A stretch of 64,000 bases of DNA, from the NCBI RefSeq assembly GCF_032854445.1, contig NC_088297.1, positions 3,843,991 to 3,907,990 of the forward strand. The letters run 5' to 3'. Of the stretch, positions 1,851 to 54,584 are shown one piece after another. Position 1 is the stretch's first letter, and each line of letters starts with the position of its first letter. Position numbers and translations under genes: made by a program. Source of the DNA: Liolophura sinensis. Taxonomy: Eukaryota > Mollusca > Polyplacophora > Chitonida > Chitonidae. Below the pieces are notes generated by a model. That model did not search any database and was not told the origin of the DNA. It saw only the letters and a program-made list of their open reading frames with translations.

Positions 1851-3393
1851 CAACAGTTACCAGCATTTATTTTAAATCATATACATGCTGTATCTATATC
1901 ACTGTACTAACATCACTAGCTGTATTTTCTATCTATTCTGTTGATTATTAACACTTCAGACTCCTGAGACCATCCATCCTATAGACCTTCCTTGTAGACC
2001 ATCTTCACCATTTCTACGGATTCAGTCTTATTTATACTTTTCTGACAATGTAGGTGGAGCTAACCATAAATTCTAGGCTTCTCATTGGTTACAACACAGA
2101 TGTAGACAGTCATGCACTCCTGAGATCAGCATGGTGTAAAAACTGTACAACAATTATACAAAGTTTCTTTAAAATTTAATTGGACACAGAATACTTCACA
2201 TCTGTCAAAGTTCAGCCAACAAAGACTGTCTATGCTTTTCTACGTCGACATGTAAAATTTGTCGTATTGACCCACAGAATTACAATGGGAGTTCTTCAGG
2301 GATTAATGAAAGGTCCGGTTGCAGACAAGATGGCGGCACGGGAAACACTCGTCTAAATAGTGGATTTATTCTGTCTAAAGCGATTACAGAAGGAAATTTA
2401 CGACTGCAGATAAGTAAAACCTATTCGAGAGCTGTGGAAACTAAGTTATATATCCTGGGTTTCGACTTCATACTGGTAGTAAATGAAGCTCACTGAAAAC
2501 ATTGTGGACTGCTAGAGATCACGTGATCTCCTTAGTAACAAACGGCGCGACTGAAGCAAACGGCCACCCCAACCTTATTGAATAGGAAAATGCCTATTTT
2601 TGAATCGCTGTCAGTGATCTTGTATCCGTTGGATTTGTATAATTTCCAGATATCCTGAGTATTTCTGCAGAGCTTTCGTGATGTTATTTTGTACAACTAG
2701 GCCTTACTGGTCGCTAGCGAAGTGGCAAAAAGTGGCCTTTCCCCAATGCTTTAACATTGGGCAACCATTTTGTTTTCAACACGAAAGGGTGGTCACATGA
2801 CCTCCAATTTCCGACCCGTCTTACAAAACTTATTCACCTTTAGCATTTTCCCTGTGCTAAACCCGAGCGAATTAAAACTCCATAGTCGCTTTAAATATAC
2901 TTCAATATGTTTAACAACACTGTCTAATTGGCCACAGACCCCCATTAATTTTCCACAAGCGGCAATGTTAACGTCTATCGCTGTAACATTCCGTGGCCAG
3001 TAAGCTTTGGTGCATATCTGCCCTAGCCTGTGAGAAAGAAGCCAATAAAGTATTGACAAAGGTTGACCGTCAAAACCTGAACCTTTCTATGCCGGCCGCT
3101 GGGAGGGGTGCCGAGCAACGCCAAGGGGACGTCGCTCGCAGCCTCATGACACCTATCTCCTTGTGTCCTACCGCCCAGAATTTCAAACTTTCATCAGTAA
3201 AACTCATACCTGCCCAAAGCTTAGACAATTTCCACCATTTTGATACCAAGCATGCACCTGTACACCAAAAACGGCAGGCTGGCAGCAAAAAAAAGACTTT
3301 ACACCCTAAAATACACAGAATTACATTCGTCCCTCCCAAAAAACGAACGTTGTAATGGGGGGTCTGCGTCCAGGTAGTTTTGTAGACACTTAA
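1851..3393. other. non-coding, old dispersed repeat
   Basis: No gene supported. The stretch 2505-2650 (GAGATCACGTGATCTCCTTAGTAAC onwards) matches the reverse complement of 9375-9530 in the SLCO intron, so a dispersed element is shared. Short open frames near 2770-3355 overlap on both strands without splice sites or domain signatures. Confidence 0.45.
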
Positions 3394-3440
3394 GGTCCGT
3401 TTATACAGAGCGCGAACGTGAACGCGAACGCGAACGCGGT
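3394..3440 (+). repeat. left terminal inverted repeat of Harbinger element
   Basis: Starts GGTCCGTTTATACAGAGCG and runs into about five tandem GCGAAC/GCGAACGT hexamers. The first 25 bp are a perfect inverted match to 7252-7276. GCGAAC runs are a likely binding site for the MADF partner or the nuclease (inference). Confidence 0.93.
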
Positions 3441-3478
3441 TTTTCGTCCTGGAATGGTATAGTCATTTTATAATGGAA

Positions 3479-3496
3479 CCGTTCAAATAGAGTGCG
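3479..3496 (+). repeat. subterminal inverted repeat (left)
   Basis: CCGTTCAAATAGAGTGCG at 3479-3496 matches the reverse complement of 7182-7199 at 17 of 18 positions. It lies about 85 bp inside the left end and is again followed by GCGAACGCGAAAGCGAAC. Confidence 0.85.
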
Positions 3497-3714
3497 AACG
3501 CGAAAGCGAACAAATATTTGTTCGCGCGAACGACCGCCGAGATTGCCCCCAGAGCGAATTTTTCAGAACGCCGCGGCGGATTTCTTGCTATCAGGTTGTA
3601 TCAACCAATCAGGAAGTACCACCTCCCATTGCATCATTTCCAAAAATAGAAACTTGTAGGCATGGCTTTTCCAAGAAAACGCTACTCATAACCAGTCTAC
3701 GTTGCTTGTAGGGT

Positions 3715-6169
3715 ATGGCCGATGCCGAGAAGATGGATAAAAAGGAAGTCATGATTTTAGAAGTGGCAAAAAATACGGTTTTGTTCGACAAATCTGATAA
3801 AGCTTACAAAGAGACAGTCAAAAAGAAAGATATTTGGAAGGCAATTGGAGAGAAAATTGGACTGACAGGTCTGTGATTGAAATTAATTTCAATTTATTTT
3901 GCCTCTGTCAACAATGGTATGAAACTAACATAATTGTATGTACCAATTCAATTATTAAACACGTTTTAACTTTCATGTTAGCAGTCATCATAATGACACC
4001 ATTTTAGCTCTGAGAGAACTACAGGTACGTCGAAAAAAAATAGAATATGATGGAAATGCTTAATATTTTTTTAGATAATATTTTTTTCTGATTTCAATGA
4101 CAATGTCCTACCAATTAGCAAAATTTCAAGAACAACTGTTTGAAATATTTAACACTTTATGTAATAAATCCTCAAAATGTATGATTTATACTTTCTGAAC
4201 CAACTGACAAAAATATTGACCATTTTCATAATATTCTAATTTTATGAGACGTACCTGTATATGAAGGAATTACGATATTATAAAGCCTGCGTCTCACACT
4301 GACAGATCTGATACACAGGAATACAATAAACACAGGCAATCTGTTTGTCTGTCTGTTCTCGTTATTGTCTAGACAGAGCTGTGAATGATATTATCTTCTT
4401 TGGGGAAATTGACTGTTGTCACACTTTGTTTAAAACGTCCTCTGAATGTGTGGATGCATGTCTATGTCCTAATTGGCATGTCCAAAGCATTCTTCCATTT
4501 GCCATGTGACTGTTCCTGCTGGGGAACCGAAATAGTTTTTGAACTGTTCTCGCACCTCAATGGCTGCATCCCTAGGTCGATGGCCTTCTCGCCTGAAAGG
4601 CCTCAATACACCATCGTGGATGTCTGTTTCCATGGCCTCCACGTCAGCCCCGTGTGCACCGACCTCCAGTTCACCACACAGCATGTTATGTAAAACTATG
4701 CTTGCTTTCACTGCACACTCCACATTTTCAGGTGACAGAGAGAGTTTTCTGTGATACATTCTCCACCGATTTGCCAGTATGCCAAACGTGTTTTCAGAGA
4801 TTCTCCTTGCTCGCGATAGTCTGTAATTATAAATCCGCCTTGCATCATTCAGATGAGAACCTGGGTACGGGCGCATCAAATTGGTCATGAGCGGGAAGGC
4901 TTCATCTCCTACTATTACATGAGGACAGGGTTGATCATCCACGATTAATGGTTTGTCATCCGGTAGGGCAAGCGTTTTGTTTTGCATCTTTCGAAACAAT
5001 GCAGTGTTTTTGAAAACGCCAGAATCACTGTTTGACCCGTATGAACCAATATCCACAAATGTAAAACGATACCGATAATCCACGAGGGCCAGAAGAACGA
5101 TTGAGAAAGATTTTTTGTAATTGAAGTATTTACTTCCTGAACAGGGAGGCGCCTGAATCAATACGTGCTTTCCATCTAAAGCACCTATGCAGTTTGGGAA
5201 CTGCCATCTTTCACGAAATCCCCTTTCAGTTTGCCGCCACATTTCTTGAGTTGGCTGAGGTAGATGAATTCGTTGTAGTTGATTCCAAATCGACTCGCAT
5301 ACTTCACGTACGATTGCTGCCACTGTCGCAACCCCCACACGGTAACTCGATGCTATGGTGTGGTAGGAATCCCCAGTTGTCAAGAACCTGAAAGCAAACA
5401 AAAGATATTAATAGAGATCTGCATTTCTGTTTCAGGTAAAGAAGTGGAAACTCGTTGGAAGAATGTGCGTGATGGCTTTTCTAAATATAAAAGGAAGCTG
5501 AAATGCCAGAGCGGGGATGCAGCTAAACCAGTCAAGGAATACAAGTACGCAAAAGCTCTGTCCTTTCTAACCCCCTACTTGGGTGACAGACCCACCAGCA
5601 GCAACTTGACAGAGGGATCAGATGAGGACCCATTGCCACCAGACACCTTCTCTGACGAAGAAGATGATGCAAGTCAAATATCTGACATCCAGCCACGACA
5701 TGATCGACCAGTTACACCACTGAGCACCAGTGTTGCCTCCTCAAGTCAGTCCAAGCGAAAACAAAGGCGCACTCAGGATGATTTGGACGCCACCTTATGT
5801 CACTATTTGAAGAAGAAGTCACGTACTCCTGAGAAAAGAGAGGAAAAGCAAGATGATGTGGATCTGTTCCTTCTGTCAATGGCCGGAACAATCAGAAAGC
5901 TCCCTGCACGTAAACGGACCGAGGTTAAGTTTAAAATACATAGCGTCGTACATCAAGCGGAAATGCAGTGCTGCTTCCCTGAAATGTCGACACCAGTTGA
6001 TATGCAGCCCATGAGTGAACTTCCGAATTTGACCTACACCCGATGCATGACATCTCCTGCGCATGACATGCAGCCAATGGGCAGCCAGCCCACCGTCAGA
6101 AGCAACTTGGAATCAACCTTTCAGGGCTTCCAGTCGTACTCCCAGTTTCTGGACTCTCAGGGATCGTGA
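3715..6169 (+). CDS. MADF/BESS-domain DNA-binding protein of Harbinger element
   Basis: Two exons, 3715-3868 and 5436-6169, give 295 residues. The donor is CAG|GTCTGT and the acceptor TTTCTGTTTCAG|G, and both join in phase (codon GGT split 1+2). The start ATG has an in-frame TAG two codons upstream. Residues about 12-90 form a MADF (Myb/SANT-like) domain with the aromatic marks DIWKAIGEKIG and ETRWKNVRDGFSKYKRK. An acidic, Ser-rich linker follows, then near residues 195-230 a BESS-like segment (DVDLFLLSMAGTIRKLPARK). In known PIF/Harbinger elements the Myb-like partner brings the nuclease to the nucleus and binds the termini; that role is assigned by family. AATAAA signals occur near 6520 and 6580. 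No break seen. Confidence 0.9.
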
Positions 6170-7107
6170 TGACCACAAGGGCATCTTTGTTTCTTTGAGT
6201 TATTATAATTTTAAATTGCAGATGACAATTTCAAGGAAATATTTAGATTTAGGAAAATATTGCTAAACAAAATGAGAAACACATAACAGTGTTTATGCTA
6301 ATTTTGAACATTTGAACTGTTTTCATCAAGATGCGATGGAAAGGAAATGTTATTGTTTTCATTTTGAACTGTTTCAGTCAAGATTCGATGGAACAAACTG
6401 TAATTATTTTCATTTTGGGCATTTGAATCGATAATACAATAATTACGATTATTTTTACTACTGCTTCTTTTTCACTCGAACCTGTTATAAAGATTTACTG
6501 CACTGAACACAAGCATACATAATAAATGTTTGAAATGCTATTCAAGTATTGTTTTAGTTAACGAATGCATTGTATAAATAAAATCTTTTAATTATAATTT
6601 TACACGTTTTTTTTGGTTTTGTTTTTTTGTTTTGTTTTTTTTTTGTTTTGTTTTGTTTTTTGTTGTTTTTTTTGTTTTTTTTCTTTTTTTAATTATTTTT
6701 CCATCCTTGTCAGTGCGTGTCCTGCTACAGTATTTCCCACTGAAATATAAACATTGCAGATCCAAAATTAACTTATTATAGGGAAAACACTGAAACTTTA
6801 CTTACCTCAAACAAATGGCCAGCCGTTCTCTTGGGGTGATGGCCTTCTTCCAGTTAGTATCTTGTTTGCAAATGTCGCCTCGAATTAATTCCAAAATGTA
6901 GTCAAATTGCTCCTCAGTCATTCGAAAATATTGCTGAAATTTTGCAGGATGAAAATACAGTTCTTGGACGAGGTGGTGGTACTCTCCATATTCACTTCTT
7001 CTCTGTAAAATTTCATGCACGGACACACGCCTCTTTCTCTTTCTACGCTGTTTTGTGTATAAATACAGAGCTATGATCTCCTCCGTGTCTGACTCTGCCT
7101 GTGCCAT
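4469..7107 (-). CDS. Harbinger transposase (DDE_Tnp_4 / HARBI1-like nuclease)
   Basis: Two exons on the minus strand, 7107-6806 and 5387-4469, encode 406 residues. The junction TTTGAG|GTAAGT ... TTTGCTTTCAG|G restores the family motif LAICLRFLTTGDSY. Residues 60-130 carry the N-terminal helix-turn-helix region (MTEEQFDYILELI, then HTIASSYRVG). The catalytic core has D172 in GALDGKHV, D213/D222 in VDIGSYGSNSDSGVF, D262 in VIVGDEAFP and E299 in RARRISENTFGIL, the pattern of PF13359 nucleases. Its length is close to HARBI1 (about 350) plus a basic N-terminal extension (KQRRKRKRR) that may localise it to the nucleus. The reading frame is intact. Exon 2 lies inside the intron of the MADF gene and vice versa. 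Confidence 0.93.
6602..6690. repeat. T-rich low-complexity tract
   Basis: About 90 bp of T runs broken by single G (TTTTGTTTTG pattern) inside the transposase intron, downstream of the MADF gene. Confidence 0.9.
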
Positions 7108-7181
7108 GATCCAGAATGACAAAATTTTAACTCTCACAACAAGAAAAAGGCGAGCCGCCTGGAAAGCTGTCGATGGTTTTC

Positions 7182-7199
7182 CGCGCTCTATTTGAACGG
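7182..7199 (-). repeat. subterminal inverted repeat (right)
   Basis: Partner of 3479-3496, about 78 bp inside the right end. A second pair of inverted motifs inside the TIRs is what a transposase-complex binding site would look like (inference). Confidence 0.85.
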
Positions 7200-7209
7200 C
7201 CAAACTGCT

Positions 7210-7276
7210 AAAAAGTCGCGTTCGCGTTCGCGTTCGCTTTGGCCGCGTTCGCGTTCGCGCTCTGTATAAACGGACC
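7210..7276 (-). repeat. right terminal inverted repeat of Harbinger element
   Basis: Mirror of the left end. Read inward on the minus strand it is GGTCCGTTTATACAGAGCG followed by GCGAAC repeats, a GGCCAAA interruption, then more GCGAAC repeats. It is longer than the left repeat block. Confidence 0.93.
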
Positions 7277-8502
7277 TTAACTTCGACGCTATGTAAAGAT
7301 TCGACGTGGAGATATTCCAGAGGCGCACGAGTGGTGGTTCTGTTAAATGGAAAACGTTCAGCGTGAGGCTCCATACGGTAACAAGTATATAATGAAAATA
7401 CAAGCGAACGGCCTCCTGCCACAGCATCTACATTTGAGTATGTACTTTGGTGTATCTCTTTAGTGTCCTCGAGATGTGTCTTCCTCCACACGCACACACA
7501 CACACACGCGCGCGCGCGCACGGAACTCTTCGGAGATTTCCGGTTGGCCGAGTGGGTAACGCTGCTAATTCTGAGCCACGTGACGCAAGAAGACTCCGGA
7601 GCAAATTTGTGATCACGGAGTGTTCCCGGTGTCTGACACACATACCTACAGACCTATAAGCGCCGACACAATAGTGATCGAAATGCTCAGTTAGCATTTA
7701 GATGATAAATAAAAAAGTTAGCCTAAACACGAATGCTCATTTTCGTCATATGGTTAGATTTATTTTACGAGCACAAAGTACAAACCACAAATAAACCATG
7801 CACTCAGTGTTACAAAAGCGATGACACCAATAATGACGGCAAAAGCATGCAATGTTGAAAGTATTTATGAACACGATGGCCAAACTGTACATGTAAAAGC
7901 AGCTTCACGATATGAAAATAATTGTCCGAATCGTTCTCATTGAACGACAGTGCACTACGCGGTGCACCCAGAGAAAGAATTCCGTTACAAATAACACAGT
8001 ATATACCCACCCATGTACACTTGTGTATGGCAAAGGTGAAAAGAGTATATCGTTTTTTCCCTTCATTATGAAAAATCGGAAGAAATATCTTTTGCTATGA
8101 CAGACTATATTCTGTTAACTTTACCAAAACATGTGTTAATAATACAATTGATGGAGAAAGAAAGCCCCAGAGTGCTTTGTGTACATCACCACCCTGAATT
8201 CACTAGGTAGTCTACCCTACAAAACAATGACGTGGACGAATTATCGAGAGCTGGATTCGAACCTGGGACGCCAGTGTCCGGAGTTCGACCGGAATGGGCG
8301 AGAGGAACGTTGACAGTATAGCTGAATGAGCTAGTAAAGACCTTATGTCTGTGTATGTACGCATGGGTTTTACGTCGTACTTGAAGGCCTTACAAGACTA
8401 CAAGAGAAAAATGCCTAACTGGATGGAGTCTAGCTGAGATTTTTTCTCTCAGTGGATTAGCTTTCTAATTGTTTCTGGATCCTGATCGGAGGGTTCTCAG
8501 TT
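7277..8502. other. SLCO 3' flank, intergenic
   Basis: Contains a CA/CG dinucleotide tract at 7488-7519. A minus-strand AATAAA (plus-strand TTTATT near 7756) could serve the SLCO gene. A B-box-like GGTTCGAATCC on the minus strand near 8253-8263 marks a decayed tRNA-derived repeat. No coding region seen. Confidence 0.45.
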
Positions 8503-11500
8503 TCACAATTGTTGTTCTGCGTCTGGTGCCAAGTTCACGGCTTTGTACTCGGCCTTTTGTGGATTTTCCCGAAGTTTCTTTTGATGATGCATCAAAGCGA
8601 GGAACGCGCAGATTCCCGAGAATACGAACATCACCATATTTGTCCCGAATATTTTGAACCGGAGACCAGCTAGGTTGTACAGAGCGCATGCGCCTCTACC
8701 AGAGCAACTTCCTTGCCAGAGAATGCAGTTTGTGTCGACGATGTATCCGTAGAGTATTGGACCGGGGAAGTGACCTGGAACAACGACAACATTGGCTCAT
8801 GAAGACCACATACTATTCCAAACTCAATGAATGGGGCACTTTAAAAAAACAACAAATAATGGACCCTAGCGTTTAGGGAGAGGCCCAAACGGTCTGATTT
8901 GCTCGGTAACTCAATAAATCAATTCTATATCTGAAATTCTTTCGAGGCTATGGAATGCGCCAGGGTGAAGCAACACTATGTCACGTGACTTGTACCGCAC
9001 GCACATATGGTTAATGGCACACCAGGGTTCCTGTGACGTAAGAGGAAACAGCTGCGTTCTCGGGTTATAGAAATACCTCGCGTCTGATTGATCAGAATTT
9101 ATAACATTGTGATACTTTCAGTTTTCCCAATATTTGCTATTTTGCTTACTTTGTACTGCTATATCTCGATTATGCGACACGCTCAAAATGTTCTGCTTCT
9201 TGAACTTCATGTGGGATACTTTATCATGCGTACATGTGTATACATTTAGCCTGAGTTGTCCTTCCTTTAAAATTATTTCTGCCTCGAGTCCAAGCAGTTA
9301 GCTTATTTACAATGTGTCCATTAAACCTGGATCTCCTTAATTTATTCATATCTTATTTATTGGCTCAGAAAATCACGTGATCGATCCAGCTTGGGCGGAA
9401 ACAAAATCCAACGAATACACTATCGCAACGATTCAAAACTATGCATTTCCCTATGCTATAACATGGCAATTTTCTTCGACCGAGCCGTCAGTTACTAAGG
9501 AGATCACGTGGTCTCTAACTTCCGTGCTGTCGTACAGAATTGTAAAACTTACCTAGAAGTGTGGACATGAAAGCCGAAAGCCCCAGCGCTAAAGCCTTAT
9601 CGTTTTCCGAAACACTCCTATAACAAGGAAACAAACAACCAATGAGTCATATACCCCAAGCGAGTGAGTGAGTGAGTGAGTGCTTGGGAGTGAGTGCTTG
9701 GGGTTTAACGTCGTACTCAACAATTTTTCAGTCATATGACGACGAAGGAATCATTAGGGTGCATGTACGTGTAATGTGCCTCCTTGTTACAGGACGGATT
9801 TCCACCGCTCTTTTATTTAGTGCTGCTTCACTGAGACGACTTACTGAAGGTAAGTAAGCCGCCCCGCCCGAGCCATTATACTGATACGGGTCAACCAGTC
9901 GTTGCACTATCCCCTTCATGCTGAACGCCAAGCGAGGAAGTTACAACTTCCTCTTTTTTAAAGTCTTACGTGTGACTCGATCAAGGATTGATCCTGGATC
10001 TACCGGTCCCGAAGCGGACGCTCTACCAACTGTGCTATCCGGGCCGGTTCCAATGTATGACAAAATAGTTCACATCCCCTACGGTGAATTTGCCGAAATT
10101 TGTTTCTGAATCTTAATGAAAAGGAAAGTTGTATCAAACAGGTTGCTTCAGTGGCCCAAGTAAGCAATACATAATTTAACCGGTTGAATTCACAATTTGC
10201 TGCTGTGACGTCATATAAAACCTTTACAACTCTGCAAGTATTTCCCACATTTTCAGCCCAATGATTCTGTTCGACAAGAATTTATTTATTTATTTATTTA
10301 TTTATTTGTTTGATTGGTGTTTTACGCCGTACTCAAGAATATTTCACTTATACGACGGCGGCCAGCATTATGGTGGGAGGAAACCGGGCAGAGCCCGGGG
10401 AAAACCCACGACCCACGAACCCATCCGCAGGTTGCTAACAAACCTTCCCACGTACGTTCGACAAGTACATGTATATTTGTATTTGAAGGTCAGAAGTTAG
10501 CCAGTCAAAAATGTAGCGCTTCCCTTCATTCAGTCACGGCCTTTCACGCAAGATTGCGAATCACGTGACGTACCTGACAAATATCATGAAGGTGGGACTG
10601 GCTGTGAACGTGATGACAAATGACGTCAGAGTGAAGTACATCAGAAGCACGTACACCTTCGAATCCTCCGGGGCACAGAAGCCCGCCGTGGCTGTTCCGT
10701 TGGCGCATGCGCAGTCAGAGTAAGTCTGTGAATCAATGAAACAAATATTTTTGTATAGCATATCAATCTAGGCGTCCAATCAGACATTCGCATAGAAGCC
10801 GTGAACCAAAATAGGCGTTCCCGATGAGTTATCGCGAGATCAGTTCCCAAAACGACGTTGAACACAAACTACCACAGAACCAAGAAAATTACGGTATATG
10901 AAGTAAGAATTTAAGACGGATGCATGCAGAGGCCACTTTCGTAACCATGGTGGTTCCAAAGCACTATGTTTCCCAAAATTCTGACAGCCACAAGACAAAG
11001 GAAATAAAAGGCAAAAAATCCGTGTAAAATGTACGTACCCTGTTGGCACGCGAGAAACATCCTGCATGACACGGGGAGTAATACGTGAGCCCATCAGAAC
11101 CGCACACTGGTCTGAATTCATCGTTTAGGCACAGGCAGTTTCCCACACAACTGGAGTTGGAGGCGATTGATTGTCCGGACATCCTGTGTAAACAGAGAAG
11201 CAACACTGATTGGTTGATTGATTGATGGATTGACTAATTGATTCTTTACGTATCTTCGAAAGATGACAATTCACAGGAACCGACATAATATTCATGGAAA
11301 CATCTTCTTGGAATTACTGTTTGAAGAACTGATTAACTGATTGATGGGTGAATTTTGGCCTACGGGTGTTTTGATTGAGTTATTGATTAATTATTATTAA
11401 TATTGATTAAAGTTATCATGAGGTAAGAACACCACATAACAAAACGCTCTAACTGAATTTTCACACAGTTATTTTACTTCCCGGCATGACGCCCTAGGCA

Positions 11501-14500: not shown

Positions 14501-15648
14501 ATTTGAGTACAACACATGTTGTTGGCAAACTTAAGGACAAGTGAGGCAAGTTTTTACACATCGTTTGGTGAATTTTTGACGCGATTTTAATCCAAGTGGA
14601 ATAAAAATCTTCTGAAATCAAGACGTTTATATATTCTGTGATAATTAATTAATGATCATAAGAGTTTGACAGACTTGTAAACCCTTAATTTTCAGAGCCA
14701 GTGAATGATGAACTTCCTGTACACCATATAATTAACAATGCACTAATTAGACGAAATGTTACAAGCAATCTGGTTTGAAGGCTCCACTTTCACAAAATTT
14801 CGTAGATCTATTTCCGAATCTTTCGCTCGTAAAAGTCACTTTTTTGACATCATAACGCATACAACGTCATTTGCGTAAATAGGCCTCGGTCTACTCTAAC
14901 CTCTGTTTATATACCTTTCGTCAAACAAATACTTACCGACATATTTTCCACTGTTTACTGGAACGGGGTTGTTATCGTCCAAGTAAGTGCCACCCAGCGG
15001 AGCACGCGGTGCGGTTACTGCCCCTTGAATTAACATGGCGATCAGAAATATCGCCATGGCAACTGTACTAGTGTACGAGCTTTCATCAGCCTGTGCATCG
15101 CAAGTAGATTTCATATTCACGCCAGAGTCAAACTTAGTGGCAAATTCGCAAGTTCCACTGGAAACATTTGCGGCCTTCGACTGAAGGCTCTGGTTCTGCA
15201 CCGCCATGACGCTCTGCTTTTCCATGGGTAGGAACTGAGCGGAGCTAAAAAGTAATCCGGTGAGACCGACAATGGACGCCGTCACGGAAAGAATTTTAGG
15301 GATGTTAGAATGACGCCCATAATGTGAGAAAAACAGGATGCAGATGACAAACGAGACTTGAGACGAGCTCAGAATGAAACCAGTCTGGGAACTGCTGAAA
15401 CCGAAACGTTTCTCCAACGTAGTGACTTGCGAAATCAGATACATCCGCAGCGAAAACGTGACCAGGTTGGACAAAGCACCGAATCCGACAAAACCTTGGA
15501 CAGTTGCAAATTTCTGCAGCCATCTTGGCTTGCATCCCCCAATTCCACATCTGGTGTCCACGGGGTCATCTTCGTAGGTGTCCTCTGTCGAATTTACCAT
15601 CCTCTCCGAATCGTCAGTGGTTTTGACCGGCTCCATTTTGCTGTCCAT
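8503..15648 (-). CDS. organic anion transporter, SLCO/OATP family (9 coding exons)
   Basis: Coding exons on the minus strand: 15648-14937, 14423-14337, 13365-13132, 12693-12529, 12041-11852, 11183-11039, 10725-10574, 9617-9553, 8774-8503. All introns are GT-AG, every junction keeps phase, and the sum is 2,022 nt, i.e. 673 residues plus TGA, normal for OATPs. An in-frame TAA precedes the ATG. The protein has a charged N-terminus, twelve-helix MFS architecture, N-glycosylation sites in the first large loop (NQS, NVS), the OATP signature [11 protein letters not shown] at residues 274-284 opening exon 3, and a Cys-rich Kazal-like loop at about 475-535 ([36 protein letters not shown]) before the last helices. 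The final exon reads [18 protein letters not shown], then GACALYNL and the last helix. The family imports amphipathic organic anions (bile salts, steroid conjugates, eicosanoids) at the plasma membrane; the substrate here is unknown. Orthology to a particular SLCO member cannot be fixed by eye. Confidence 0.95.
8986..9530. repeat. dispersed repeat in SLCO intron 8
   Basis: Two blocks, 8986-9075 and 9375-9530, are similar in reverse complement to 1205-1290 and 2505-2650. The order of the blocks is not collinear between the two places, so they may be separate old elements. Confidence 0.5.
9661..10048 (-). mobile_element. SINE family 2 (tRNA-headed, CACT-tailed), full length
   Basis: Read on the minus strand it starts with a tRNA-like head (GGATAGCACAGTTGGTAGAGCG A-box region; GATCAATCC B-box region). 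A unique body follows, and the tail GAGTACGACGTTAAACCCCAAGCACTCACTC ends it. It is nearly identical to 42850-43215. It lies in SLCO intron 7, in the same orientation as the gene. Confidence 0.88.
10277..10460 (-). mobile_element. SINE family 1, 5'-truncated
   Basis: Tail ATTTATTTATTTGATTGGTGTTTTACGCC and body as in the intact copy at 14020-14297; the tRNA head is missing. Located in SLCO intron 7, sense to SLCO. Confidence 0.88.
11200..11400. repeat. TTGATTGA simple-repeat-rich intron
   Basis: Scattered GATTGATTGATGG runs in SLCO intron 5. A similar TTGATTGATTGA tract is at 13387-13410 next to exon 3. Confidence 0.7.
13480..13960. repeat. GGATGAATAGATGGATGGAT minisatellite
   Basis: Degenerate array of GATG/GATA tetranucleotide-derived units (GGATGAACAGATGGTGTGGATGG and variants) in SLCO intron 2. 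Confidence 0.85.
14020..14297 (+). mobile_element. SINE family 1, full length with target-site duplication
   Basis: Head GGCCTCCGCGGCTCAGTTGG (A-box region) and GGTCGCTGTGAGTTCGAGTC (B-box region), then a conserved body and an (ATAA)n tail. The 11-bp direct repeat TGAATAAAACC flanks it exactly (14009-14019 and 14298-14308). It lies antisense in SLCO intron 2. Best reference copy of family 1 in this window. Confidence 0.94.
14481..14495. repeat. C homopolymer in SLCO intron 1
   Basis: A run of about 15 C interrupted little, just upstream (gene sense) of SLCO exon 2; likely to vary in length. Confidence 0.9.
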
Positions 15649-16958
15649 GTTTTTTCGTAATCTATCGATCAAAGCGAATTAAGGCCTGGAAAAAAAATTT
15701 TAAAAAATGCAATTAGTTGATGGAGCATATGTTTTGTCACCTTTTCTTTCAGATAGGCCACATGTATCTCGCTTTTAGTGGCAAATACAAGAGCTTGTGT
15801 TAATATGGTCAATGCTTTTCATTCTTCGTCATAACTCTTTTATTAACCACATTAGGTCAAGAGTTTTTTGTCATTGACTTCTATACTCCTTTTGAAGTTT
15901 TTTTGCGCTTTGTCCAAAAAATCTATTTATTTATTTGATTTGTGCTTTACGCTTTACTCAAGAATATTTCACTTGTACGACAACGACCAGTATTATGGTG
16001 GGAGGAAACCGGGCAGAGCTCAGGGAAAACCAACGATCATTGTCTAAAAAATTTAGAGATTGTTACCAGCTTTTCCTACTTCACTTTAAATCGGTTTGGC
16101 AGCCTTTATTAACATCCTATTTCTAACAGAGCCACAGTTTCCCCAAACGCGCGTGGAGTTGGCGTAAGGGAAAGCTAACCGCTGGCGCATAACTAAAATA
16201 TTCTTCAATATACCTCATATAAAAAAAGAACAATCAGTTTGATGAAGGATGAATGAAAAGATATAATGTTTGAACTCGAATTACATGTTCGTCACTCAGG
16301 GCGGGGAAAGTCCATCATGCTCTTCTTTATGGAAGAAGGGATAAAATTAAAGACAGATACGGAAAATTTTTGACTACTTCTTTGAGGCCTAGAATTATCG
16401 TTGAAATTCTATGCTATTCCTTTTGAATAAATTGTATAAAATATTCGATATATTTAATATGTCAGAATTAGACTAATTTAAGATTTCAGAATCTGTGTGA
16501 AACTTTATGCTAGGTATTTTCAACAATAGAAATTCTTAGAGTTTCTCTTAGTATTCTTTGAAGAGAAATGCTAGCAAAAGCAATTCCCTGTCATTCAGAT
16601 CTTACCTGTACATTTCTCGGACTGATTCTGCTATCTCAGATTTAATATAATCTTGGTTTGATATCCCGACGACGTCAGAGAATACAGACTGGTTACAGGA
16701 AGTGTCCAAAATCCCGCCCAAGTCTAATGAAGAATCTGATGTCCAAAATAGATCAGGTGTTTAAACCTGGGCGTTTTTTTTCTGTAGTCAAATGTGTATC
16801 ACTTCAGTCTTTTTTGGACGGTATCAGTATTGGTGCGACTGTGCCGCTGTGAAGTCGAGTGTCGCTTCTGAAGAACTGCACGGGAGCAGTATACTAATAT
16901 ACTCGGCGGAGAACCCTTGCAAGCGGACCGCCCAGCCTTTGATGGCAGTAAAACAAAT
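15649..16958 (-). promoter_or_regulatory. SLCO 5'-UTR intron, untranslated exon and likely divergent promoter
   Basis: Immediately 5' of the SLCO start is a good acceptor (TTTTTTTTCCAG|GCC, near 15685). A donor on the same strand, TACAG|GTAAG, ends a candidate untranslated exon at 16606. This suggests a leader intron of about 0.9 kb. A plus-strand signal-peptide exon starts at 16959, so 16607-16958 could be a shared promoter. No TATA box was recognised. Transcription starts are inference. Confidence 0.45.
15924..16040 (-). mobile_element. SINE family 1 tail fragment
   Basis: TTTATTTATTTGATTTGTGC through GGGAGGAAACCGGGCAGAGC, diverged and 5'-truncated, inside the proposed SLCO leader intron. 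Confidence 0.8.
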
Positions 16959-17069: not shown

Positions 17070-17913
17070 GTGAGGGAGGGAAAAGTCAACTAATACAATC
17101 AATTCGAAAAATTCGGTACAACTAAAACCCAGATGTGGTAAAATAACAAATCATAATATTTGATAAAAAAAAAATCCAGGTCACAGACAAAACATAAAAA
17201 TGATATTACTACTGCCACGTCATGCAAGAGCTTAGTAAGCCAAAACTTAGTAAGTCATATTTCTCGTTCTTAAACGACATGGTCTACTGGTTATGGCACA
17301 AAGCCAAGTGACTTACGAGGAAACTTACGAAAAACGTGTTTATGGACTGTTGTAAAAGTGGTCCCTCATAAAATCTATCATGATTTCATATGATAGTGTT
17401 CGAATTTAACGGGAAAAAACACATCGTGTGGCGGTATATTGTAAATTGCTAGATTCGAGATCTGTCTTGACCTCCCACAAAGAAAGTTACGAGTTCAAAT
17501 CAACGAACTGCCTATTTGTTTGTGGAGCTCTGTTTTACACTAAAGGTTTGCTATACCTTACCTTGCTGGACACATGTGTGAACACTCCATATTAGCAATT
17601 AAATGTCGATTCAGATACTTTTAAATATATTCAAGAAAGTTTTAAGACAATATTTTGCAAGTATTATTGGATGCTGTTCAGTTCTGTCTAGTGATGACGA
17701 CTTTTCTTGGGGGGTTTGCTGTGAGTAGTTTTTCAAGGAATTTAAGTAAGTTTGTTTAGCTTGTGTTGTTTCTGTTTGCTAAATGTTTACTTTTAGTCGT
17801 AATTCAAGTCTTATATTTCAAGGATATAATGAGTGAATGCCATTTTAAAGCGGTTGGAGAAAACATACATGTACGGGTACCAAGATGACAACTCGGATAA
17901 GTTCTAGTTTGAG
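17070..17913. other. non-coding, nothing recognised
   Basis: AT-rich; if the exon at 16959-17069 is real this is intron. No repeat family identified. Confidence 0.5.
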
Positions 17914-18268
17914 TGAGTGAGTGCGTGAGTGCGTGAGTGAGTGAGTGTTTGGGGTTAAACGTCATACTTAACAATTTTTCAGTTATGTGACGCAGTAGGA
18001 GTCTTTAGAGTGCATGACATGTGCCTCCGTGTTACAGAACGGATTTGCACTGCATTTTTATCCAGGGCTGCTTCAATGAGACGACTTAGCGAAGGCAAGT
18101 GAGGCGCCCAGCCCGAACCATTATATTGATACGGGTCAACCATTCGTTCACTATCCCCTTAATGCAACTTCCTCTTTTAAAGTCTTACGTGTGACTCGAC
18201 CCAGGATTGACCCTGGATCTACAGCCCCCCGAAGGGGACACTCTACCAAGTGGGCTATCGGGGCCGGC
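17914..18268 (-). mobile_element. SINE family 2, diverged
   Basis: Tail repeats AGTGAGTGAGTG, then GGGGTTAAACGTCATACTTAACAATTTTTCAG, body, and tRNA-like head ending ...CTACCAAGTGGGCTATCGGGGCCGG. Same order as 9661-10048 but more diverged. Confidence 0.85.
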
Positions 18269-27357: not shown

Positions 27358-27718
27358 TACCGGTCCCAATAGCACAATTCTTAGAGCGTCCGCATCGGAA
27401 ACGGTAGATCCAGGGTCAATCCTTGATCGAGTCACACCTAAGACCAATAAAGAGGAAGTTGTAACTTCCTCGCTTGGCGTTCGGTATGAAGGGGGATTGT
27501 GCCACGACTGGTTGACCCGTATCAGTATAATGGCCTGGGCGGGAGCAGCTGACCAGCCTTCGGTAAGGACGTCTCAGTGAAGCAGCACTAGATAGGATGG
27601 AAATCCATCCTGCAATAAGGAGGCACATTACATGCACTCAAATGACTCCTTCGTCGCCATATGGACTGAAAAATTGTAAAGTACGACGTCAAGGACCCAA
27701 GCACCTCCACTCACTCGT
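27358..27718 (+). mobile_element. SINE family 2, full length but mutated
   Basis: Head CCGGTCCCAATAGCACAATTCTTAGAGCG, B-box GGGTCAATCC, body with GAGGAAGTTGTAACTTCCTCGC, tail ending CAAGCACCTCCACTCACTCG. Confidence 0.87.
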
Positions 27719-33724: not shown

Positions 33725-33809
33725 ATAAAGTGATGACTCGTTGCAATAGTCACGCTGGACTTTGGCCGTGCAGTGAGGTCGCGGGTTTGAATCCAGTCCT
33801 GGCTCGTGA
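33725..33809 (+). mobile_element. SINE family 4 tRNA-like head
   Basis: CAGTGAGGTCGCGGGTTTGAATCCAGTCCTGGCTCGTGAC carries a B-box-like GGTTTGAATCC. The rest of the SINE is absent, and the 38-bp minisatellite begins directly after it. Confidence 0.65.
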
Positions 33810-36800
33810 CGGACCCTTTTTGTTTTAATGTGTTTGAGTGTGTTTAGACAACAGAGCCTTTTGGTTTTAATGTGTTTGAGTGTGTTTAGACAACGGAGGA
33901 TTTTGTTTTTATGTGATTGGGTGTGTTTAGACAACAGGCCCTTTTTGTTTTAATGTGTTTGAATGTGTTTAAACAACCGAGCCTTTTGGTTTTAATGTGT
34001 TTGAATGTGTCTAGACAACCGAGCCTTTTTGTTTTAATGTGTTTGAGTGTGTTTACACAACGGAGCCTTTTGGTTTTAATGTGTTTGTGTGTATTTAGAC
34101 AACGGAGCCTTTTGGTTTTAATGTAATTGAGAGCATTTAGACAACGGAGCCTTTTGGTTTTAATGTGTTTGTGCTATGACAACGGAGCTTTTTGGTCTTA
34201 ATGTGTTTGTGTTATGACAACGAAGCCCCTTTTTTAATGTGTTTGTGTGTGTTTAGACAACGGAGCCTTTTTGTTTTAATGTGTTTGTGTTATGACAACG
34301 GAGACTTTTGGTTTTAATGTGTTTGTGTTCTGACAACGGAGCCTTTTTGGTTTAAATGTGTTTGTGCTATGACAACGGAGAGCCTTTTCGTTTTAATGTG
34401 TTTGTGTTATGACAACGGAGCCTTTTGGTTTAATGTGTTTGTGTTCTGACAACGCAGCCTTTTTGTTTTAATGTGTTTGTGTTATGACAACAGAGCCATT
34501 TTGGTTTAATGTGTTCGTGTTATGACAACGCAGCCTTTTTGTTTTAATGTGTTTGTGTTCTGACAACGGAGCCTTTTGGTTTAATGTGTTTGTGTTCTGA
34601 CAACAGAGCCTTTTGGTTTAATGTGTTTGTGTTATGACAACAGGGCCTTTTTGGTTTAATGTGTTTGTGTTATGACAACGGAGCCTTTTTGGTTTAATGT
34701 GTTTGTGTTCTGACAACGGAGCCTTTTTGGTTTAATGTGTTTGTGTTCTGACAACAGAGCCTTTTTGGTTTAATGTGTTTGTGTTATGACAACAGAGCCT
34801 TTTTGGTTTAATGTGTTTGTGTTATGACAACGGAGCCTTTTTGGTTTAATGTGTTTGTGTTATGACAACGGAGCCTTTTTGGTTTAATGTGTTTGTGTTC
34901 TGACAACGGAGCCTTTTGGTTTATGTGTTTGTGTTCTGACAACGGAGCCTTTTGGTTTAATGTGTTTGTGTTCTGACAACGCAGCCTTTTGTTTTAATGT
35001 GTTTGTGTTATGACAACGGAGCCTTTTTGGTTAATGTGTTTGTGTTCTGACAACGCAGCCTTTTTGTTTTAATGTGTTTGTGTTCTGACAACGGAGCCTT
35101 TTTGGTTTAATGTGTTTGTGTTATGACAACAGAGCCTTTTTGGTTTAATGTGTTTGTGTTATGACAACAGAGCCTTTTTGGTTTAATGTGTTTGTGTTCT
35201 GACAACGGAGCCTTTTTGGTTTAATGTGTTTGTGTTATGACAACAGAGCCTTTTTGGTTTAATGTGTTTGTGTTATGACAACGCAGCCTTTTTGGTTTAA
35301 TGTGTTTGTGTTATGACAACGGAGCCTTTTTGGTTTTAATGTGTTTGTGTTCTGACAACGGAGCCTTTTGGTTTAATGTGTTTGTGTTCTGACAACGCAA
35401 CCTTTTTGTTTAATGTGTTTGTGTTATGACAACAGAGCCTTTTTGTTTTAATGTGTTTGTGTTTATGACAACGGAGCCTTTTGGTTTTAATGTGTTTGTG
35501 TTCTGACAACGGAGCCTTTTTGGTTTTAATGTGTTTGTGTGTATTTAGACAACGGAGCCTTTTGGTTTTAATGTGTTTGTGCTATGACGACGGAGCCTTT
35601 TGGTTTTAATGTGTTTGTGTTATGACATCGGAGCTTTTTGGTTTTAATGTGTTTGTGTTATGACAACAGAGCCTTTTTGGTTTAATGTGTTTGTGTTATG
35701 ACAACGGAGCCTTTTTGTTTAATGTGTTTGTGTTATGACAACGGAGCCTTTTTGGTTTAATGTGTTTGTGTTCTGACAACGGAGCCTTTTGGTTTAATGT
35801 GTTTGTGTTCTGACAACGCAACCTTTTTGGTTTAATGTGTTTGTGTTATGACAACAGAGCCTTTTTGGTTTAATGTGTTTGTGTTATGACAACGGAGCCT
35901 TTTTGGTTTAATGTGTTTGTGTTATGACAACGGAGCCTTTTTGGTTTAATGTGTTTGTGTTCTGACAACGCAACCTTTTTGGTTTAATGTGTTTGTGTTA
36001 TGACAACGAAGCCCTTTTTTAATGTGTTTGGGTGTGTTTAGACAACGGAGCCTTTTGGTTTTAATGTGTTTGTGTTATGACAACAGAGCCTTTTTGGTTT
36101 GATGTATTTGTGTTATGACAACGGAGCCTTTTTGGTTTAATGTGTTTGTGTTATGACAACGGAGCCTTTTGGTTTTAATGTGTTTGTGTTATGACAACGG
36201 AGCTTTTGGTTTTAATGTGTTTCTGTTATGACAACGGAGCCTTTTTGTTTTAATGTGTTTGTGTTCTGACAACGGAGCCTTTTTGTTTTAATGTGTTTGT
36301 GTTATGACAACGGAGCCTTTTGGTGTTAATGTGTTTGTGTTATGACAACAGAGCCTTTTTGGTTCAATGTGTTTGTGCTATGACAACGGAGCCTTTGGTT
36401 TTAATGTGTTTGTGCTATGACAACGGAGCCTTTTGGTTTTGATGTGTTTGTATTATGACAACGGAGCCTTTTGGCTTTAATGTGTTTGTGTTATGACAAC
36501 GGAGTCTTTTGGTTTTAATGTGTTTGTGTTATGACAACAGAGCCTTTTTGGTTTTAAATGTGTTTGTGTTCTGACAACGAGCCTTTTGGTTTAATGTGTT
36601 TGTGTTCTGACAACGCAACCTTTTTGGTTTAATGTGTTTGTGTTATGACAACAGAGCCTTTTTGTTTTAATGTGTTTGTGTTATGACAACGGAGCCTTTT
36701 GGTTTTAATGTGTTTGTGTTCTGACAACGGAGCCTTTTTGGTTTTAATGTGTTTGTGTGTATTTAGACAACGGAGCCTTTTGGTTTTAATGTGTTTGTGC

Positions 36801-39800
36801 TATGACGACGGAGCCTTTTGGTTTTAATGTGTTTGTGTTATGACATCGGAGCTTTTTGTTTTAATGTGTTTGTGTTATGACAACAGAGCCTTTTTGGTTT
36901 AATGTGTTTGTGTTATGACAACGGAGCCTTTTTGGTTTAATGTGTTTGTGTTATGACAACGGAGCCTTTTTGGTTTAATGTGTTTGTGTTCTGACAACGG
37001 AGCCTTTTGGTTTAATGTGTTTGTGTTCTGACAACGCAACCTTTTTGGTTTAATGTGTTTGTGTTATGACAACAGAGCCTTTTGGTTTAATGTGAATGTG
37101 TTTGTGTTATGACAACGGAGCCTTTTTGGTTTAATGTGATTTTGTGTTATGACAACGGAGCCTTTTTGGTTTAATGTGTTTGTGTTCTGACAACGCAACC
37201 TTTTTGTTTAATGTGTTTGTGTTATGACAACGAAGCCCTTTTTTAATGTGTTTGGTGTGTTTAGACAACGGAGCCTTTTGGGTTTAATGTGTTTGTGTTA
37301 TGACAACAGAGCCTTTTTGGTTTGATGTATTTGTGTTATGACAACGGAGCCTTTTTGGTTTAATGTGTTTGTGTTATGACAACGGAGCCTTTTGGTTTTA
37401 ATGTGTTTGTGTATGACAACGGAGCCTTTTGGTTTTAATGGTATTTTCTGTTATGACAACGGAGCCTTTTTGTTTTAATGTGTTTGTGTTCTGACAACGG
37501 AGCCTTTTTGTTTTAATGTGTTTGTGTTATGACAACGGAGCCTTTTGGTGTTAATGTGTTTGTGTTATGACAACAGAGCCTTTTTGGTTCAATGTGTTTG
37601 TGCTATGACAACGGAGCCTTTTGGTTTTAATGTGTTTGTGCTATGACAACGGAGCCTTTTGGTTTTAATGTGTTTGTGCTATGACAACAGAGCCTTTTTG
37701 GTGTAATGTGTTTGTGTTATGACAACGGAGCCTTTTAGCTTAATGTGTTTGTGTTATGACAACGGAGCCTTTTGGTTTTATTGTGTTTGTGTTCTGACAA
37801 CGGAGCCTTTTGGTTTTAATGTGTTGTGTGTATTTAGACAACGGAGCCTTTTGGTTTTAATGTGTTTGTGCTATGACGACGGAGCCTTTTGGTTTTATGT
37901 GTTTGTGTTATGACATCGGAGCTTTTTGGTTTTAATGTGTTTGTGTTCTGACAACGGAGCCTTTTTGGTTTTAATGTGTTTGTGTGTATTTAGACAACGG
38001 AGCCTTTTGGTTTTAATGTGTTTGTGCTATGACGACGGAGCCTTTGGTTTTAATGTGTTTGTGTTATGACATCGGAGCTTTTTGGTTTTAATGTGTTTGT
38101 GTTATGACAACAGAGCCTTTTTGGTTTAATGTGTTTGTGGTTATGGACAACGGAGCCTTTTTGGTTTAATGTGTTTGTGTTAGGACAACGGGAGCCTTTT
38201 TGGTTTAATGTGTTTGTGTTCTGACAACGGAGCGTTTTGGTTTAATGTGTTTGTGTTCTGACAACGCAACCTTTTTGGTTTTAATGTGTTTGTGTTATGA
38301 CAACAGAGCCTTTTTGGTTTAATGTGTTTGTGTTATGACAACGGAGCCTTTTTGGTTTAATGTGTTTGTGTTATGACAACGAGCCTTTTGGTTTAATGTG
38401 TTTGTGTTCTGACAACGCAACCTTTTTGGTTTAATGTGTTTGTGTTTGAACAACGAAGCCCTTTTTAATGTGTTTGGGTGTGTTTAGGACACGGAGCCTT
38501 TTGGGTTTAATGTGTTTGTGTTATGACAACAGAGCCTTTTTGGTTTGATGTATTTGTGTTATGACAACGGAGCCTTTTTGGTTTAATGTGTTTGTGTTAT
38601 GACAACGGAGCTTTGGTTTTAATGTGTTTGTGTTATGACAAACGGAGCCTTTTGGTTTTAATGTGTTTCTGTTATGACAACGGAGCCTTTTGTTTTAATG
38701 TGTTTTGTGCTATGACAACAGAGCCTTTTTGGTGTTAATGTGTTTGTGTTATGACAACGGAGCCTTTTAGCTTTAATAGTGTTTTGTGTTATGACCAACG
38801 GAGCCTTTTGATTTTGATGTGTTTGTGTTATGACAACGGAGAGTTTTGGTTTTAATGTGTTATGACAACGGAGCCTTTTTGGTGTTAATGTGTTTGTGTT
38901 TGACAACAGAGCCTTTTTGGTTCATGTGTTTGTGCTATGACAACGGAGCCTTTTGGTTTTAATGTGTTTGTGCTATGACAACGGAGCCTTTTGGTTTTAA
39001 TGTGTTTGTGCTAGGACAACAGAGCCTTTTGGTGTTAATGTGTTTTGTGTTATGACAACGGAGCCTTTTAGCTTTAATGTGTTTAGCTTAATGTGTTATG
39101 ACAACGGAGCCTTTTTGGTGTTAATGTGTTTGTGTTATGACAACAGAGCTTTTTGGTTCAATGTTTTGTGCTATGACAACGGAGCCTTTTGGTTTTAATG
39201 TGTTTGTGCTAGACAACGGAGCCTTTTGGTTTTTAATGTGTTTGTGCTATGACAACAGAGCCTTTTTGGTGTTAATGTGTTTGTGTTATGACAACGGAGC
39301 CTTTTAGCTTTAATGTGTTTGTGTTATGACAACGGTGCCTTTTGATTTTGATGTGTTTGTGTTATGACAACGGAGAGTTTTGGTTTTAATGTGTTTGTGT
39401 TCTGACAACGGAGCCTTTTTGGTTTAAATGTGTTTGTGCTATGACAACGGAGAGCCTTTTCGTTTTAATGTGTTTGTGTTATGACAACGGAGCCTTTTGG
39501 TTTAATGTGTTTGTGTTCTGACAACGCAGCCTTTTTGTTTTAATGTGTTTGTGTTATGACAACAGAGCCTTTTTGGTTTAATGTGTTTGTGTTATGACAA
39601 CGCAGCCTTTTTGTTTTAATGTGTTTGTGTTCTGACAACGGAGCCTTTTGGTTTAATGTGTTTGTGTTCTGACAACAGAGCCTTTTTGGTTTAATGTGTT
39701 TGTGTTATGACAACAGGGCCTTTTTGGTTTAATGTGTTTGTGTTATGACAACGGAGCCTTTTTGGTTTAATGTGCTTGTGTTCTGACAACGGAGCCTTTT

Positions 39801-41170
39801 TGGTTTAATGTGTTTGTGTTCTGACAACAGAGCCTTTTTGGTTTAATGTGTTTGTGTTATGACAACGGAGCCTTTTTGGTTTAATGTGTTTGTGTTATGA
39901 CAACGGAGCCTTTTTGGTTTAATGTGTTTGTGTTATGACAACGGAGCCTTTTTGGTTTAATGTGTTTGTGTTCTGACAACGGAGCCTTTTGGTTTAATGT
40001 GTTTGTGTTCTGACAACGCAACCTTTTTGGTTTAATGTGTTTGTGTTCTGACAACGCAGCCTTTTTGTTTTAATGTGTTTGTGTTATGACAACGGAGCCT
40101 TTTTGGTTTAATGTGTTTGTGTTCTGACAACGCAGCCTTTTTGTTTTAATGTGTTTGTGTTGTGACAACGGAGCCTTTTTGGTTTAATGTGTTTGTGTTC
40201 TGACAACGGAGCCTTTTGGTTTAATGTGTTTGTGTTATGACAACAGAGCCTTTTTGGTTTAATGTGTTTGTGTTATGACAACGGAGCCTTTTTGGTTTAA
40301 TGTGTTTGTGTTATGACAACGGAGCCTTTTTGGTTTAATGTGTTTGTGTTCTGACAACGGAGCCTTTTTGGTTTAATGTGTTTGTGTTATGACAACAGAG
40401 CCTTATTGGTTTAATGTGTTTGTGTTATGACAACGCAGCCTTTTTGGTTTAATGTGTTTGTGTTATGACAACGGAGCCTTTTTGGTTTTAATGTGTTTGT
40501 GTTCTGACAACGGAGCCTTTTGGTTTAATGTGTTTGTGTTCTGACAACGCAACCTTTTTGGTTTAATGTGTTTGTGTTATGACAACAGAGCCTTTTGGTT
40601 TTAATGTGTTTGTGTTATGACAACGGAGCCTTTTGGTTTTAATGTGTTTGTGTTCTGACAACGGAGCCTTTTTGGTTTTAATGTGTTTGTGTTATGACAA
40701 CGGAGCCTTTTAGCTTTAATGTGTTTGTGTTCTGACAACAGAGCCGTTTGGTTTAATGTATTTGTGTTATGACAACAGAGCCTTTTTGTTTTAATGTGTT
40801 TGTGCTATGACAATGGAGCCTTTTGGTTTAATGTGTTTGTGTTATGACAACGGAGCCTTTTGGTGTTAATGTGTTTGTGTTATGACAACAGAGCCTTTTG
40901 GTTTTAATGTGTTTGTGTTATGACAACGGAGTCTTTTGGTTTTAATGTGTTTGTGTTATGACAACGGAGCTTTTTGGTTTAAATGTGTTTGTGTTATGAC
41001 AACGGAGCCTTTTGGTTTTAATGTGTTTGTGTGTATTTAGACAACGGAGCCTTTTGGTTTAATGTGTTTGTGTTATGACAACGGAGCATTTTGGTTTTAA
41101 TGTGTTTGTGTTCTGACAACGGAACCTTTTGGTTTTAATGTGTTTGTGTTATGACAACAGAGCCTTTTGG
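33810..41170. repeat. 7.4-kb minisatellite, ~38-bp unit, ~190 copies
   Basis: Consensus ACAACGGAGCCTTTTTGGTT + TAATGTGTTTGTGTTATG (38 bp, range about 36-42). The main variants are TTATG/TTCTG before the junction, CGGAGCC/CAGAGCC/CGCAGCC/CGCAACC, and a T-run of 4-5. The first few units at the left edge are a 42-bp form with GTGTGTTTAGACAAC. Because 38 is not divisible by 3, all open frames here drift and are not genes. Higher-order duplications are described under findings. Confidence 0.97.
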
Positions 41171-42849: not shown

Positions 42850-43215
42850 GAGACCGGCCCGGATAGCACAGTTGGTAGAGCGTCCGCTTCGGGACCGGTA
42901 GATCCAGGATCAATCCTTGATCGAGTCACACCTAAGACTTTAAAAGAGGAAGTTGTAACTTCCTCGCTTGGCGTTCAGCATGAAGGGGATAGTGCAACGA
43001 CTAGTTGACCCGTATTAGTATAATGGCTCGGGCGGGGCGGCTTACTTGCCTTCGGTAAGTCGTCTCAGTGAAGCAGCACTAAATAAAAGAGCGGTGGAAA
43101 TCTGTCCTGCAACAAGGGGGCACATTATACGTACATGCACCCTAATGATTCCTTCGTCGTCATATGACTGAAAAATTGTTGAGTACGACGTTAAACCCCA
43201 AGCACTCACTCACTC
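42850..43215 (+). mobile_element. SINE family 2, full length with 11-bp TSD
   Basis: Head GGCCCGGATAGCACAGTTGGTAGAGCG and B-box GGATCAATCC, body, and tail AGTACGACGTTAAACCCCAAGCACTCACTCACTC. The direct repeat CTCCAACCTAC lies at 42839-42849 and 43216-43226. The head folds like a tRNA acceptor/D-arm by eye. This is the reference copy of family 2 here and looks young. Confidence 0.95.
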
Positions 43216-49100: not shown

Positions 49101-49710
49101 ATAGTGAATGTAATGTAGCTGCATCTGATCTACTTGAAATAATACAACCAGTATACAGAGCTACTGTATTTTAAGAGCTGACAGTGTATACATATTTGTT
49201 AAGCTTTCCTAATGTGTGCCTTTATTCCATTATTAACTTCTCATGACTAAGGTATACATGTATTTATGCGTTTGTATATGTCATTTTGTTGCTGTAATGA
49301 CATGAATATTGTTATTTACAACTTCTGAATATTATTGATTGTTATAGATTTTCTCAAATATATTTATGTAAAACATTTTTCTCTTGTTATAGGCTTTTTT
49401 AGCACAAAGTAAAGGTTTGTGGAAATATGTGAATGCAAAGTTTTAATGTTGAATGTACAGGTATATGTATATGCATGATGTGTTACATAGTACCAGTACT
49501 TACAGTAATTCTTCCACCTTTTTCATGTTTGTAAGATGTTTATTCAAGCATATTCTGAAGGCAATTTTTCTGTGTTGACTGCTAAAATTATACTTTTTGT
49601 GCAGCCCTGAAATTGACCAATCCAATGTATTGTCTCCAATATCGTATTAAAGATTTGCATAAATTGCACTGAAATTAGCTCTTTCACATGCGAAATGGTT
49701 GAGGGATTAG

Positions 49711-50014
49711 GGTAACAATTTATCAGTCATATGACAAAGAGTCATTAGGTGTGTGTAGATATACCGTGTCTTCTAGTGACAGGGCGATTCCATGCTGCCA
49801 AAGTGTTGTCGCCACTGAAGTATCATGTGGAAGACACCAGACATGACACCTCACCCAGTCACATTTTACTGACAACCAGTCCTGTTTCCTTGCTCTAACC
49901 TCTCAGTGCTGAGCGCAAAACAAGGCAGCAACAAGTCTTAGGAATGACCTGACCAAGATTTGATCCCGGTCTCCTGACTCTTGGGTGGACATTCAAACCA
50001 TTAAGCCACCAAAG
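49711..50014 (-). mobile_element. SINE family 3 (tRNA-headed), full length
   Basis: On the minus strand the head GGTGGCTTAATGGTTTGAATGTCC (A-box region) and GGGATCAAATCTTGG (B-box region) are followed by a body and an end TCATATGACTGATAAATTGTTACC. Duplicated at 57825-58135; degenerate copies near 22700 and 29950. Confidence 0.8.
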
Positions 50015-50431
50015 CAATCTTTCCAATGTTTAATATCTATCTTAAATTTGCTTCCTGTTATGTGCATTGGTTACTCCATTCTGTTTCAGCCACATGTAAC
50101 GTGTGATATTGCGTTGAAGATTATAAATTTGCTATGCTTACTGACAAATTTTCTGGGTCCAGTTGTTCAAAAATGTATTAGCACTTAATCCTGATATTAA
50201 ATGTAGTCTGGACTTGAATCAAATCAAATTTATACCGAGACTGGTATTAAGATTTAAGTCTGGCTTAATTTTTAATACACTTTAGAACAACAGGACCGTG
50301 AACATCCTTCACTATAAAGGGGAGTTAAATTGAGTTGACTGATAGGTTGATATGACAAACCACGAGCATATATGCCTGGTTAAGCGATTGATTGAAATTC
50401 TCCCCCACTGTTTTTACTTACTTGATACTGT

Positions 50432-50679
50432 TTAATTTATTTTTTTATTTGATTGGTCTTTTACGCCGTACTCAAGAATATTTCACTTTTATGATGGCAG
50501 CCAGCATTATGGTGGGAGGAACCCACAACCATCTGCAGGTTGCTGGCAGGCCTTCCCACATACGGCCGGAGAGGAAGCCAGCATAAGCTGGACTTGAGCT
50601 CACAGCGACCGCATTGGTGCGAGACTCCTGGGTCATTACGCTGCGCTAGCGCGCTAACCAACTGAGCCACAGAGGCCCC
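50432..50679 (-). mobile_element. SINE family 1 in copy A
   Basis: Complete tail, head and most of the body; the CGGGCAGAGCCCGGGG block is deleted. The same deletion is in the copy B element, so the insertion predates the duplication. Confidence 0.93.
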
Positions 50680-51114
50680 AATTATGTTTAAACGCTGCAC
50701 TGAAGTGTTTTTCGCTGTTTATGATGAAGGTCAGGAAACTGGGTGGATCTAGTGGAATTCAGCGCCCAGGGCAACGTATATAGTGTTAAGTGGCAACGTA
50801 TATTCCATGGCAACAAGTAGTCTGTAGGTATTACGTTGCCATGGAAATTACGTGGTGGATGAACAACAGCTACACAAGCGTCACCCACCAACTGTTGTCC
50901 CCACGCATGCTGCCAAGGCCTCACATGTAGGAACAAATTTCATAACGCATGGCTCAATCACGCAAATCCGTGCATCACAATTAAGACACAGGAATGGTGC
51001 AAAAATATTTCATTTCTGTGAATTGGCTTTTTAAAGATCAACCACATAAACATCAGCCAGCTATTCATCATTAAGCACGTCATCATTAAGCTGCGGTGAA
51101 CGGGGCATTTAGAA

Positions 51115-54580: not shown

Positions 54581-54584
54581 CTTT

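Follow-up and report, generated by a model that had tools for sequence, protein, structure and literature searches.

Transposons of the PIF/Harbinger group usually have terminal inverted repeats (TIRs) shorter than 60 bp that start with A or G, and duplicate a TWA target on insertion, according to the available portions of Han et al. (2015; PMC4482050). The same portions list 88 potentially active families, defined by two intact ORFs, beside 214 PIF/Harbinger families, and state a mean element size of about 4.1 kb. The second gene encodes a Myb-like partner that binds the TIRs and acts in nuclear import (PMC9179366, in the text available). Also reported, from insects, are domesticated pairs of PIF transposase and MADF genes; in the excerpts of PMC9710019 at hand these pairs are without TIRs and target duplications, and their two-exon transposase genes have introns of ~0.9–1.5 kb.

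We analyzed a window of 64,000 nt from Liolophura sinensis (Polyplacophora; Chitonidae; assembly GCF_032854445.1, contig NC_088297.1, positions 3,843,991–3,907,990, forward strand). Window positions 3394–7276 (~3.9 kb) very probably hold a PIF/Harbinger transposon of the cut-and-paste type that is structurally complete and possibly autonomous, and for which present activity is, on sequence evidence, only possible. The element shares with two-gene PIF/Harbinger families a DDE_Tnp_4 transposase, a Myb/SANT-type partner (here MADF), short TIRs with an A/G start and TWA-compatible flanks, and its size is close to the mean given above. Its two-gene plan, putative TWA duplication and the predicted role of the partner match published descriptions, as far as the available text of PMC4482050, PMC9179366 and PMC9710019 extends. 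The locus, with its MADF-BESS partner, adds another member to this known kind of element. What sets it apart from the two-gene families, as described in the text available, is the interlocking of its coding exons, which belong to genes on opposite strands. This layout is the most interesting and the one unusual feature of an element that is otherwise ordinary for PIF/Harbinger. Complete two-gene copies could serve to study the cooperation of transposase and MADF/Myb partner, and are candidates for development as gene-transfer tools. A preliminary description had called the element structurally intact, with a perfectly matched outer 25 bp, TTAA on both sides, two uninterrupted genes with canonical splicing and an intact MADF partner. 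These claims are upheld by the ends, flanks, open spliced frames and domain matches described below (Table 1); recent activity, which the same description suggested, is a possibility only.

Table 1. Features of the transposon and its flanks, in window coordinates.
Feature	Position	Strand	Basis and remarks
TTAA left flank	3390..3393		read directly; target duplication 3 or 4 bp; part of 37-bp inverted arm
Left terminal inverted repeat, 33 bp	3394..3426	+	one mismatch to right end, at 3419
18-bp end motif, outer left	3397..3414	+	motif search
18-bp end motif, inner left	3479..3496	+	motif search
Perfect 20-bp palindrome, left subterminal	3506..3525		20 letters identical on both strands
MADF-BESS coding exon 1	3715..3868	+	splice model, Pfam
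MITE-like inverted repeat, 240 bp	4020..4259		in MADF intron; arms 43/51 complementary
Transposase coding exon 2, with DDE domain	4469..5387	-	splice model, Pfam, junction scoring; inside MADF intron
Intron overlap, 48 bp	5388..5435		both 3' splice acceptors, opposite strands
MADF-BESS coding exon 2	5436..6169	+	splice model, Pfam; inside transposase intron
Transposase coding exon 1	6806..7107	-	splice model, junction scoring
18-bp end motif, inner right	7182..7199	-	motif search
Right terminal inverted repeat, 33 bp	7244..7276	-	inverted-repeat comparison
18-bp end motif, outer right	7256..7273	-	motif search
TTAA right flank	7277..7280		read directly

The 25-mer at 3394–3418 recurs inverted at 7252–7276. 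These are its only occurrences in the window with up to three mismatches allowed, and it had no match in 100 shuffles. With TTAA included, the inverted arms are 37 bp long (3390–3426 and 7244–7280) and have a single T/C mismatch at 3419; it falls on a CpG and is the only position at which the 33-bp ends differ. In a single copy, TTAA on both sides is compatible with duplication of 3 bp (TTA or TAA) or of 4 bp (TTAA). As both yield identical flanks, the element begins at 3393 or 3394 and ends at 7276 or 7277. The first bases of the TIRs are GG, or AGG under a 3-bp duplication, and both start and length fit the rule for the group.

The transposase is encoded on the minus strand by two exons that join to a frame of 406 aa (stop TAG, GT-AG intron, donor GTAAGT). 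It matches Pfam DDE_Tnp_4 over the whole profile (positions 1–158 of 158) with E 5.5e-31 and 107.8 bits, relative to a cut-off of 24.8. The longest stop-to-stop frames in 60 random Markov-1 sequences of 64 kb averaged 178.5 codons and reached a maximum of 415. Frame length is thus weak evidence alone, and the family matches carry the case. A relative, here called L002, was identified on a 3.5-kb contig labelled as an Arenicella MAG (CALINO010000055.1, 316–1521, minus strand). Its 401-aa frame matches DDE_Tnp_4 with E 7.4e-30 and is 38% identical to the window transposase over 325 aligned columns. In the stretches chosen, 18 donors and 17 acceptors were combined, which left six joins whose first exon is open and whose frame runs for 250 residues or more before a stop; among these, the 6806/5387 junction scored best against L002 (587; next best 538). 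At the site that corresponds to the window's transposase intron, L002 lacks one, which means that not all such transposases carry it. A partner gene was not identified on the L002 contig. The eukaryote-type transposase on a bacterial contig is probably due to contamination of the MAG.

The acidic residues listed in the preliminary description for the nuclease (D172, D213, D222, D262 and E299) are all present. D172, D222, D262 and E299 are identical in L002, whereas D213 is replaced there by serine. We therefore rejected D213 as a conserved residue, and on this one comparison D222 appears the better catalytic candidate. AlphaFold2 models of exon 2, alone or aligned with L002, had mean pLDDT values of 36.7 and 35.9, which is too poor, and were not used. 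The part of the MADF intron downstream of the transposase stop has a single minus-strand AATAAA, at 3898, ~30 bases away from the MADF donor.

The partner gene, on the plus strand, encodes a protein of 295 aa (stop TGA, GT-AG intron). The protein matches MADF_DNA_bdg (E 2.5e-16, profile positions 2–84 of 84) and BESS (E 2.8e-7), both above the curated cut-offs. The MADF match spans the proposed splice junction, which is supported by this match together with the GT-AG sites. The donor, GTCTGT, is weaker than that of the transposase when compared with the consensus; like the lone AATAAA downstream of the transposase stop, this counts against the reading as a complete, possibly autonomous element. 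In the stretches searched, AATAAA is present on the plus strand at 6521 and 6577. The MITE-like repeat in the intron appears to be flanked by a TA duplication.

Both genes point inward, each from its own element end. The MADF intron (3869–5435) holds the large exon of the transposase, and the transposase intron (5388–6805) holds the large exon of the MADF gene. The coding exons of the two genes do not overlap, and the spliced coding sequences have no bases in common. By this layout, transcripts that have not been spliced would be complementary to each other over the central part of the element. We found no description of such an arrangement in the available portions of PMC9710019, PMC9179366 and PMC4482050. 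None was named in the titles and abstract openings retrieved from the literature searched, which included few subscription papers and did not extend to Repbase, so that the arrangement may be known. If family-wide, it would be a Harbinger gene organization for which no description has been found so far. It also provides a pair of genes on opposite strands, both predicted to splice through the 48 bp they share, in which such splicing can be tested.

It seems unlikely, although conceivable, that selection has favored the interlocked layout as a means of keeping the partners linked and possibly of damping expression through double-stranded RNA. With the large exons in each other's introns and both acceptors in the shared stretch, internal deletions would tend to hit both genes; if the layout is selected, the transposase and its partner would in this way stay linked. 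The complementarity of convergent unspliced transcripts could allow the element or its host to damp expression via double-stranded RNA.

Each end also carries two direct copies of a degenerate 18-bp motif, spaced 82 bp apart on the left and 74 bp apart on the right. The motif was composed from these four sites after they had been inspected, and exact matches there are by construction. No fifth site was found in the window with three mismatches allowed. None of 100 shuffles had four sites (mean 0.27, largest 3). Of 16 copies of the hexamer GCGAAC in the window, 12 lie within the element ends. The Myb-like partner is reported to bind Harbinger TIRs and to take part in nuclear import, which makes it plausible that the MADF protein or the transposase binds the 18-bp motifs. 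Separately, the palindrome, which follows the inner left motif and precedes the MADF start, is possibly a regulatory site.

Sleeping Beauty-type transposons have IR/DR ends. The arrangement here is similar in having two direct motif copies per end, inverted between the ends. It differs in that the transposase belongs to an unrelated family and in that the motif is only a candidate binding site.

If the element functions as predicted, each gene would be transcribed inward from its own element end. The MADF-BESS protein would bind the paired end motifs and help to bring the transposase into the nucleus. The transposase would cut the ends via its D/D/E residues and insert the element at TTAA or TWA targets.

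Both frames are open across 2109 coding bases. In a simple model of neutral decay, transitions were given more weight than transversions, 80% of indels were taken as disabling and the indel/substitution ratio was set to 0.05–0.15. The modelled chance of no stop or frameshift is 0.03–0.19 at 1% divergence and 0.001–0.034 at 2%. The open frames are better evidence of youth than the perfect outer repeat, and indicate that the copy is young or that selection acted on it until recently, neither of which amounts to present activity. The CpG observed/expected ratio is 2.25 in the left end (3394–3560) and 1.86 in the right end (7110–7276), as compared to 0.77 for the window, and the undepleted CpG together with the open frames fits such a copy. 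The MITE-like insertion argues against a brand-new copy, unless the family as a whole carries it. The C/T mismatch at a CpG, as expected of decay, points the same way. When a cut-and-paste element inserts, neither end serves as the template for the other, and the perfect outer repeat is therefore weak evidence of youth. For this reason, end identity was rejected as an age clock, being invalid for an element of this type. The 64-kb window yielded neither a further copy of the element or of one of its ends nor the 28-base joined-flank sequence (up to three mismatches, both strands). The preliminary description states that most animal Harbinger copies are broken. Counted by family, intact ORF pairs are nothing exceptional in the available text of PMC4482050.

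The same kind of element could have been recently inactivated or silenced, with mobility lost through amino acid changes, damaged regulation or insertion into the intron. We consider this possible, with odds somewhat below even. The identity of the element would be the same as in the reading of a complete, possibly autonomous transposon; the difference lies solely in activity. The MITE-like repeat within the MADF intron and the CpG-type mismatch in the ends favor inactivation, and open frames are no proof of function. There is, however, no visible lesion: the acidic residues common to L002 are retained, the splice sites are canonical and CpG is not depleted in the ends.

Host selection could also have kept both frames open if the locus were a co-domesticated transposase-MADF gene pair, as reported in insects in the excerpts of PMC9710019. 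Those pairs encode both protein types found here, but they are described without TIRs or target duplications, whereas this locus has matched ends and TTAA flanks. For this reason domestication was rejected as the main reading, and we regard it as extremely improbable. Very little probability also falls to assignment to another group. Kolobok and piggyBac are superfamilies that duplicate TTAA, and the TTAA flanks here might represent a duplication of 4 bp; a further candidate would be a different PHIS group, such as ISL2EU. Against these stands the combination of a DDE_Tnp_4 transposase with a MADF partner. In addition, a TTA or TAA duplication fits the TWA rule (PMC4482050, text available), and no YqaJ or THAP Pfam match was found in the element at E values up to 0.1, which argues against ISL2EU.

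No relative other than L002 was recovered from the collections searched. The conserved-block transposase pattern had no hit in viral_contigs, and a laxer form hit one contig in genome_contigs, that of L002. Transposase exon 2 gave 13 pattern stretches in genome_contigs, none of which was confirmed. The transposase had no match in viral_contigs, plasmids or phages, and the element end patterns had none in viral_contigs. Among PDB sequences the best E values, 0.53 (transposase) and 0.18 (MADF protein), are not meaningful. There was no match to Rfam, and a scan for bacterial promoters and terminators gave nothing informative.

Other repeats are present elsewhere in the window. Two regions, 49111–55273 and 57230–64000, are long direct copies, ~92–95% identical in the aligned pieces listed, and each contains a 65-bp tandem array. 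A 7.4-kb tandem array at 33809–41170 consists of ~192 copies of a 38-bp unit. A dispersed repeat of ~360 bp is present, among the matches listed, at 9688–10048, 42853–43211, 27359–27716 and 17911–18267. The copies at 9688–10048 and 42853–43211 are 97% identical and in opposite orientation, indicating that something in the region moved or was copied recently. Also encoded, on the minus strand at 14899–15678, is an open frame that matches the OATP organic anion transporter family (E 1.7e-27) and is part of a host gene.
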